IMG/VR virus record: IMGVR_UViG_3300027747_002377
Span: 18,373 to 82,372 of that record
DNA from: a virus
Length of the DNA stretch: 64,000 nt
Reading direction: 5' to 3' (one strand)
The position numbers and the translations under genes are program-made. Each line of letters opens with the position of its first letter. Positions within the stretch are counted from its first letter, which is position 1. The notes under the pieces were generated by a model. That model worked only from the letters and a program-made list of their open reading frames with translations, was not told the DNA's origin and made no database searches. Shown in pieces: positions 46,571-52,429 of the stretch.

Positions 46571-48184
46571 TCAGTTTGTTTTTTTAAATACCATAAGGTT
46601 TTGAGCAAACCATCCCATGTGGTATCCATTCTTGATGTAGGTCAGCAGTTCTTCCTCCACATCAATTAAACGCTTGACAGGTAATTTTAAAAATAACTGT
46701 TCCCAGTACTCTTTGGTTTGACAGTTTACGTGACCAACACCTCCTTGCCCTGGGGCAGCCGCACTCCAAATTAAAACTCCATTAGGTTTTAAGCAGCTGA
46801 CGAGTGCTTGTGTAATTTCTTGATTTCTGCCCGCATCAATATGCTCTGCTACTTCCAAACAGATGACAACATTCCCGGTGTCTTTAACATCAAACAAACT
46901 TTGTTGTGTTAAATAAGGTTTATTTTTTACACGATCATCAATATCGTAGCCAACTGCATTTAAACCTTGGTTTTGCATTTCCTCTACGTACGTACCTGGT
47001 CCACAACCAACGTCCAAAACTTTGTCAGGTTTAAGTACATCAAAAATCCATGCGCTTAACCGCTTGGCAAACGGTTGTTCTTCGTTGTGCATGTAAGTAA
47101 AGTCCAGTTTGTTATTTACTGGCATTTCATACCAACCTTTTCTCCAGAGATTGTTGATATCTTTAAATATTTTGTCATATTTTTTACCGCAAGCTTCAAG
47201 GCTATACCGTGACCTTGTAATATTTGCCACCATCTGTCGAGAGAGGTCACCTGAATCATTAACAGCATTGACCCAATCTTGAAGAGTATGGCAACGGAAC
47301 CCGGTGACACCATCAAGGATGGTTTCCGTAAACGCACCGTAGTCAACAGCAATTAAAGGAGTGCCACACAACATTGCTTCCACGCCGCTGCCACCGAACG
47401 GTTCGGTAAAGTTTGTTGGCATCAATGCTGCTCGTGCATTGCGTAAGAATTCAGATCGCGCTTTACCTGTAATTGGACCACGATATTCAATGTTTGGGTG
47501 CTCCCATGGGGTTGGATCTCCTTGTCCATGTAAAATAATTGGCCAGGTACTGTAGTTGGCAATCTCTTTAATAGTATCTAGCCCCTTGGCAGAACAAATG
47601 CGGCCAAGAAAAGCTAGATATCGACCAGGTTCATAAGAGGGTTCCCAGTCATCTAGATCAAAATAATTAGGAACAACCCATTCATAATTTTTACCTTGCC
47701 GGTCTTCTTTGCCTTGGTGATAATGCATCCACGCATAGCTTTCAAAAACGCGAAAACTGTTTGGCATTAGTGTTGGGTAACCAATACCTGTTTCAACATG
47801 GTGGTGCTCAGGAAACTCAGACAATAAACGACTATGCGCATGCCCAAAAGGATGGCAAATTATATCTTTTTTTTCTAAATTTATTTTTAAAGCTGTTATT
47901 AGACGTTCTTCAAATAAAGCGTGACCCTTGCTGCCTACCGTAGCATCATCACCGTAAAAATCAACGTCTTTCCTTTTTCCATACAGAGTACTAAATTCAT
48001 TTTTAGTCAACATAGAAACATGTTTATTTGCTGTTGATTCGCTGCCCTCATTGGAATATTCAATTACCTCGTACCCATGAGCCTGCATCATCTTAGGAAA
48101 ACGCAAGACTTTGCCAGTAAAGGCGCAGTGGGAGTACTTGCTACTCGTTATAGTATGAAACAGACCGATTAGGTGAAGGCGCAT
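46571..48184 (-). CDS. Glycosyltransferase (GT4-like) fused to SAM methyltransferase
   Basis: 537 aa. Residues 1-~340 are a GT-B glycosyltransferase of family 4 type: LAFLGRICSAKGLDTIKEI, ILHGQGDP, EPFGGSGVEAMLCGTPLIAV. Residues ~380-537 are a class I methyltransferase with motif I VLDVGCGPGTYVEEM, VVICLEVAEHID and LKPNGVLIWSAA. The fusion could glycosylate and methylate a phage or host surface glycan, or modify DNA bases. A TGCTATAGT promoter lies just upstream. Confidence 0.8.
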   Translation of the reverse strand: MRLHLIGLFHTITSSKYSHCAFTGKVLRFPKMMQAHGYEVIEYSNEGSESTANKHVSMLTKNEFSTLYGKRKDVDFYGDDATVGSKGHALFEERLITALKINLEKKDIICHPFGHAHSRLLSEFPEHHHVETGIGYPTLMPNSFRVFESYAWMHYHQGKEDRQGKNYEWVVPNYFDLDDWEPSYEPGRYLAFLGRICSAKGLDTIKEIANYSTWPIILHGQGDPTPWEHPNIEYRGPITGKARSEFLRNARAALMPTNFTEPFGGSGVEAMLCGTPLIAVDYGAFTETILDGVTGFRCHTLQDWVNAVNDSGDLSRQMVANITRSRYSLEACGKKYDKIFKDINNLWRKGWYEMPVNNKLDFTYMHNEEQPFAKRLSAWIFDVLKPDKVLDVGCGPGTYVEEMQNQGLNAVGYDIDDRVKNKPYLTQQSLFDVKDTGNVVICLEVAEHIDAGRNQEITQALVSCLKPNGVLIWSAAAPGQGGVGHVNCQTKEYWEQLFLKLPVKRLIDVEEELLTYIKNGYHMGWFAQNLMVFKKTN

Positions 48185-50622: not shown

Positions 50623-50970
50623 TTACTTAGCAGAGATCACAAATGTGACAGTAGGAGTACCAGTAAGTATTGAAACCAAGTTGCCTCGGATTTGTCTCAA
50701 CGGACGATCAGCGTAGTTATAAAAATATGTTCCGTTTGCAGTCAGTGTTTTGTCTGAAGCATCCAAATTAAAAAAGTTGGTGCCATCAAGGCTTCCTTCA
50801 ATACGCACCACTACGTTCGTGCCTACAGTTGCCACGTTCACTTGCACACCAAACGTAGTAGCAGCTACCACATCTTGAACTGCTACACTAAGAGCAGCAG
50901 TAGTACCTGCAGAAGTTAATGCTGTCGGATAGTAAAAAACTGTATCCGAAAAAATAGGACTTACTGACAT
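50623..50970 (-). CDS. Virion beta-domain protein, paralogue of 46187-46531
   Basis: 115 aa. Beta-rich. VVVRIEGSLDGTNFFNL and the NGTYFYNYADRPLRQIRGNL segment align with the 114-aa protein at 46187. Probably a tail-associated or decoration protein. The start shares one base with the Dps-like stop. Confidence 0.7.
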   Translation of the reverse strand: MSVSPIFSDTVFYYPTALTSAGTTAALSVAVQDVVAATTFGVQVNVATVGTNVVVRIEGSLDGTNFFNLDASDKTLTANGTYFYNYADRPLRQIRGNLVSILTGTPTVTFVISAK

Positions 50971-51440
50971 TACTTTTTGTAATCTAAGTTGCTCTTAAGA
51001 AGCCACTGGTTCTTCTTGTGTATTCTACCGCGCTCCACGCCAAGGTCAAGGGTCAATTGATCGCCAATTGCGTTGGACATAGTAATCAGTTCATTAAAAC
51101 ATTCAGCAAGTTCATTATGGTTTGTCGCCAGCTGTAGGATGATGCCTTCCTGATTGAAGCAATTTTCAAAAGGAAGTTCGGGAATATTTGAATATGTAAG
51201 GTCCATCACCGTCTTAGGTGTGGCAATATCAAGGGACCTTATGTGTTCAGCAATGGTATCAATACCTTCTTCCATTTCTTTATAGATTCTTTCTGTTAGA
51301 AGGTGCAGCTCATAGAACTTGCCACCCATCAAACCCCAGTGCACAAGCTGTGTCTGGTGGTAAATGTTGACAGAATCGCGCAGGCACTGCAACAAGAGGC
51401 AGTAACAAGGCGTCGTCTTATCAGTAGTTGCTTTTGCCAT
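50970..51440 (-). CDS. Dps-like ferritin
   Basis: 156 aa from the ATG at 51440, two bases after the previous stop; an ATG at 51461 inside that gene is less likely. A four-helix ferritin. The Dps ferroxidase residues are in place: His34 (LVHWGLMG), His46 (FYELHLL), Asp61 and Glu65 (IDTIAEHIRSL), at spacing H-12-H-15-D-4-E as in Dps. Dps oxidises iron with hydrogen peroxide, stores it and protects DNA. In a phage it may limit oxidative damage in a light-stressed host or handle iron. Confidence 0.8.
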   Translation of the reverse strand: MAKATTDKTTPCYCLLLQCLRDSVNIYHQTQLVHWGLMGGKFYELHLLTERIYKEMEEGIDTIAEHIRSLDIATPKTVMDLTYSNIPELPFENCFNQEGIILQLATNHNELAECFNELITMSNAIGDQLTLDLGVERGRIHKKNQWLLKSNLDYKK

Positions 51441-52353: not shown

Positions 52354-52429
52354 CGGAGTATCGCCTAACTTGGTCATGGCACCTGCTTTGGGAGCAGGAA
52401 TAATCTCAGTTCAAATCTGAGTACTCCGA
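52354..52429 (+). tRNA. tRNA-Pro (UGG)
   Basis: 76 nt. Acceptor stem CGGAGTA/TACTCCG, D arm GCC…GGC with GG in the loop, anticodon arm CCTGC-TTTGGGA-GCAGG with anticodon TGG at the loop centre, T arm CTCAG-TTCAAAT-CTGAG, discriminator A. CCA is not encoded. A full cloverleaf. It is read rightward while all neighbouring genes are leftward, and its last 24 bases overlap the 3' end of the gene at 52406. Confidence 0.95.

Follow-up and report, generated by a model that had tools for sequence, protein, structure and literature searches.

A gene for a Dps-family protein among the lysis and tail-fiber genes of a phage raises the question of what such a protein would do during infection. Dps is a small iron-binding protein that serves bacteria in defense against iron-and-peroxide damage. 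In its 12-subunit cage, Fe2+ is oxidized by H2O2 at sites between subunits, and both reactants of the Fenton reaction are thereby removed. The gene considered here lies in a 64,000-nucleotide stretch of viral DNA (the window), which corresponds to bases 18373 to 82372 of an 82,372-bp virus record (IMGVR_UViG_3300027747_002377).

The Dps gene and its product

The gene lies exactly at the coordinates given in the original prediction, running on the minus strand from ATG to stop (Table 1), and its reading frame of 156 codons is complete and intact. Packing is tight: the stop codon of the DUF5754 gene lies 2 nt ahead of the Dps ATG, a GGTGA motif is a possible ribosome-binding site, and the Dps stop shares bases with the start codon of the following gene, for a 115-aa protein (TAATG). 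Lysis genes lie upstream and fiber genes downstream. The placement of a Dps gene in a tail/fiber block had been called unusual, and the lysis/fiber setting is indeed real, but it is not a one-off: the locus is fixed in dozens of related contigs, with the recurrent order endolysin, small genes, HNH endonuclease, small gene, DUF5754, Dps, and fiber-region genes, and Dps genes had already been annotated in several phages.

Table 1. Features at and around the Dps gene, in positions of the window
Feature	Coordinates	Strand	Remarks
Glycosyltransferase-methyltransferase fusion	46571..48184		adjoins fiber genes
Collagen-like tail fiber, 684 aa	48228..50282	-	phrog_5073 and others
LtfC-like/L-shaped tail fiber assembly-like protein, 112 aa	50279..50617	-	phrog_1084, phrog_3304; LtfC below cutoff
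115-aa protein	50623..50970	-	no family match; start overlaps Dps stop
Dps-family mini-ferritin gene, 156 aa	50970..51440	-	ATG at 51440, TAA stop ending at 50970
Glu65 codon, ferroxidase residue	51246..51248	-	sequence; invariant in 78/78 rows
Asp61 codon, ferroxidase residue	51258..51260	-	sequence; invariant in 78/78 rows
His46 codon, ferroxidase residue	51303..51305	-	sequence; invariant in 78/78 rows
His34 codon, ferroxidase residue	51339..51341	-	sequence; invariant in 78/78 rows
C19, start of helix A	51384..51386		in 58 of 78 rows
C12 and C14, start of helix A	51399..51407		in 52 and 42 of 78 rows
DUF5754 protein, 90 aa	51443..51715	-	Pfam PF19058
HNH endonuclease, 136 aa	51863..52273	-	syntenic marker for Dps presence test
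tRNA-Pro (TGG)	52354..52429	+
Endolysin, 412 aa	53109..54347	-	phrog_7, phrog_10051

The identification of the product as a Dps-family mini-ferritin is confirmed. The protein scores above the cutoff of the Pfam Ferritin model PF00210 (34.9 bits versus 24.5, E = 1.8e-8) and matches phrog_3636 (PHROG 3636, "DNA binding protein"; E = 1.7e-16). Its top sequence matches in the PDB are nearly all Dps/NAP chains, the best solved match being Pseudomonas aeruginosa Dps PA0962 (8ff9), with an E value of 5e-15 when searched with the sequence alone and 4e-18 when searched with the family profile. As judged from these sequence comparisons, the match to the Dps family is far beyond chance. The strict NCBIfam Dps equivalog models match only below their cutoffs, so the protein is a divergent member of the family.

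The lack of a four-helix Dps fold in a predicted structure had been named as grounds for abandoning the assignment; the fold is present in a confident AlphaFold model of the monomer, built with 19 phage sequences (pLDDT 87, pTM 0.84; helices at residues 11 to 36, 40 to 69, 97 to 125, and 128 to 153). In a Foldseek comparison of this model with the PDB, all 50 matches listed were Dps-family proteins, mostly with TM-scores of ~0.8 (~0.80 to PA0962 and 0.79 to 0.82 to Thermosynechococcus Dps). The four ferroxidase residues had been correctly positioned in the original prediction: they form the inter-subunit pattern H-x11-H-x14-D-x3-E (H34/H46/D61/E65), with the canonical Dps spacing of 12/15/4. 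The protein thus shares with PA0962 and the Dps family the four-helix subunit, the ferroxidase residues and their spacing, and a similar length, as well as the conserved GDxxT..D and a Trp near the C terminus. It differs from PA0962 in being encoded by a virus, in its sequence (~31% identity), in its N-terminal cysteines C12/C14/C19, and in having no lysine-rich N-terminal tail.

Conservation and distribution among S-EIV1-like phages

Searches of viral contigs recovered copies of the window-type Dps from more than 70 contigs, 51 to 99% identical. In an alignment of 78 rows (74 distinct open frames matching the family profile plus reference copies), the ferroxidase site does not vary, Trp35 is kept in 77 rows, and Asp127, Asp132, and Trp146 are kept in 75 to 77; the two aspartates lie near the expected Dps pore. 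Among near copies dN/dS had a median of 0.038 and reached at most 0.15; only 24 pairs were usable, because synonymous sites were mostly saturated. On this sequence evidence, purifying selection on the gene is strong and the protein is actively maintained. A chance match, a pseudogene, and a decaying passenger are ruled out by the conservation together with the dN/dS values. No close bacterial source was found among GTDB genome contigs with search patterns specific enough to miss distant homologs.

Presence at the locus was scored in contigs fetched by the HNH gene, so as to avoid selecting on Dps itself, which was then sought in all six frames. Dps was found at 49 of 73 HNH loci and not at the other 24, five of which were unscorable (L193 to L196, not syntenic or cut, and L165, cut); of the 68 syntenic contigs that could be scored, 49 therefore carry it and 19 cleanly lack it. 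In three contigs (L145, L161, and L168) a longer overlapping frame covers the gene, which the six-frame search recovered. The flanking genes are mostly retained in the 19 contigs that have no Dps, and even a close relative whose HNH gene is 100% identical (L125) has none at the site. Because of these absences, Dps is not essential everywhere, and from its distribution over these contigs we regard it as a common but dispensable gene of the clade. Records searched whole, themselves fragments, held exactly one ferritin in each of 13 Dps-bearing cases and no other ferritin in 7 Dps-free cases.

Two features of gene arrangement vary among these relatives. In one subclade (L043, L045, L103, L105, L108, L110, and L113), which to go by the sample series numbers includes marine samples, the Dps gene is upstream, not downstream, of the DUF5754 homolog. 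The collagen-like fiber region also varies among close relatives, being missing between a 114-aa homolog and the downstream genes in L007 and L015 and present in L083.

The virus is related to Synechococcus phage S-EIV1, which kills freshwater cyanobacteria. The lineage markers, namely the terminase, portal-position, and major head proteins, all have S-EIV1 homologs, and identity is seen across the genome: 70% for the major head protein, 61% for ThyX, 55% for the 758-aa protein adjoining the terminase (portal position), 50% for the terminase, 42% for the polymerase, and 36% for the primase. AdoMet decarboxylase is encoded here as in S-EIV1. Relatives whose records contain the head protein are 67 to 97% identical in it. 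Since the proteins match S-EIV1 in this way, a cyanobacterial host is likely, by kinship with S-EIV1 only. A genus-level cluster of cyanophages has been described for a marine group to which S-EIV1 belongs (PMC5332604).

S-EIV1 itself carries an annotated "DNA-binding ferritin-like protein" (AHV82153.1, 184 aa), and this second type of Dps occurs in at least 50 viral contigs. A head protein was found in 13 of 14 S-EIV1-type records tested, mostly 69 to 71% identical to that of the window, versus 87 to 97% within the window's own clade. The two proteins share the Dps ferroxidase motif, which is also intact in the sister clade, and come from phages of the same lineage. They differ in that the S-EIV1 type is extended at its N terminus by a Pro/Lys-rich segment, is ~30% identical in the matching part, and is encoded at another locus, adjoining ATP sulfurylase. 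No record checked held both types; in the S-EIV1-type records, a search with the window-type profile gave no hit or hit only the S-EIV1-type gene itself, and the reverse search gave a like result. In a tree the two types form separate clades, and a test of a single origin of both gave a p-AU of 0.355, with long branches.

Proposed function and its alternatives

Taken as a whole, the evidence makes it probable that the gene product is a functional Dps mini-ferritin with which an S-EIV1-like cyanophage, late in infection, provides a cytoplasmic sink for iron and peroxide in the host. Late expression is suggested by where the gene lies, in the lysis/tail block, and would be from the lysis/tail transcript if gene order is a guide. 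Twelve subunits would assemble in the host cytoplasm, and the cage would take up Fe2+ released during infection. Given the conserved ferroxidase site, oxidation of that Fe2+ with H2O2 at the inter-subunit centers is the most likely activity, and both Fenton reactants would be removed while phage DNA is copied and packaged. The earlier suggestion that the peroxide is driven by light is reasonable insofar as kinship with S-EIV1 makes a cyanobacterial host plausible.

Three other roles were weighed, and all rank below that of a cytoplasmic sink. Direct coating of phage or host DNA, in the manner of Escherichia coli Dps, would accord with the annotation of the PHROG family and with Lys3, Lys8, and the C-terminal Lys-Lys. 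Across the family, however, the C-terminal lysines are not conserved, and the subunit has a net charge of -6 and a short N terminus with two lysines; moreover, for some Dps proteins of known structure, DNA protection does not involve DNA binding, as the title of the Agrobacterium Dps entry (1o9r) has it. We consider this role very unlikely. The acidic subunit, devoid of a lysine-rich tail, argues mildly against DNA coating and makes the protein probably a sink rather than a coat. By the same comparison, the two phage types may differ in DNA binding, the S-EIV1 type having its Pro/Lys-rich extension where the window type has a short N terminus and negative charge.

Cyanobacteria are rich in iron, and instead of guarding against peroxide the cage might mainly salvage iron from dismantled host photosystems or build up a supply for phage enzymes or virions. 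The complete ferroxidase site and the conserved aspartates near the expected pore fit such a store, but a mini-ferritin usually favors H2O2 as its oxidant and stores little iron, and the genes annotated here showed no others concerned with iron; storage as the main role seems unlikely. The protein could instead be a component of the tail or capsid, or travel with either, and would then deliver an iron cage or shield the packaged DNA. Its gene adjoins fiber genes and overlaps a fiber-region gene, and in other uncultured phages some proteins that bear the name "prohead protease" contain a Dps-like domain. Against this, the protein has no extra virion-type domain, the Dps genes of S-EIV1 and of cyanophage S-SRM01 lie away from fiber genes, and Dps is missing from relatives that retain the neighboring genes; we find a place in the virion distinctly unlikely. 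A bolder and improbable extension would have the two sister clades of a widespread cyanophage lineage depend on two Dps proteins, acquired independently, encoded at different loci, and never occurring together, with the iron/peroxide cage a near-core function of infection and the acidic version, which would not bind DNA, possibly residing in or with the virion.

If the protein is active, its strong conservation, its naturally Dps-free relatives, and a sister clade with a different Dps would offer a clean case for testing whether phages control iron and peroxide in the cells that they infect. With hosts that are probably photosynthetic, phage success in lakes and seas might also be tied to stress from light and iron.

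Dps genes in other phages

Earlier annotations of Dps in phages include those of S-EIV1, S-SRM01, Lactobacillus phage Semele, PHROG 3636, and many uncultured phages; although phage Dps is thus known, the type studied here is kept unusually faithfully across a widespread virus group. In a search confined to a limited open library, no report came to light of its depth of conservation, of its fixed site and the relatives that naturally lack the gene, or of the two mutually exclusive types, and no paper there dealt with Dps of S-EIV1-like phages. For the Lactobacillus phage ferritin-like protein, an iron-sequestering, anti-peroxide role in oxidative protection has been proposed (PMC6669764). The Semele and PHROG 3636 proteins resemble ours as Dps-type proteins cataloged in phages but come from other hosts, and the Semele-type gene lies near replication genes, not fiber genes.

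The S-SRM01 protein, annotated as a DNA starvation/stationary phase protection protein (QPX48251.1), is likewise a cyanophage Dps with an intact motif. It is unlike the window Dps in sequence (27.6% identity), in belonging to an unrelated 241-kb myovirus, and in its neighbors; the S-SRM01 paper makes no mention of starvation, Dps, or ferritin. An 89-bp stretch over the tRNA-Pro gene (Table 1) is 93% identical to S-SRM01, whose Dps gene is a few kb away from it. A Dps-like fold also occurs within the "prohead protease" proteins of uncultured phages (BFVD A0A6J7XDU5, A0A6J7WIS1, and A0A6J7WPK9), which hints at head-associated Dps elsewhere.
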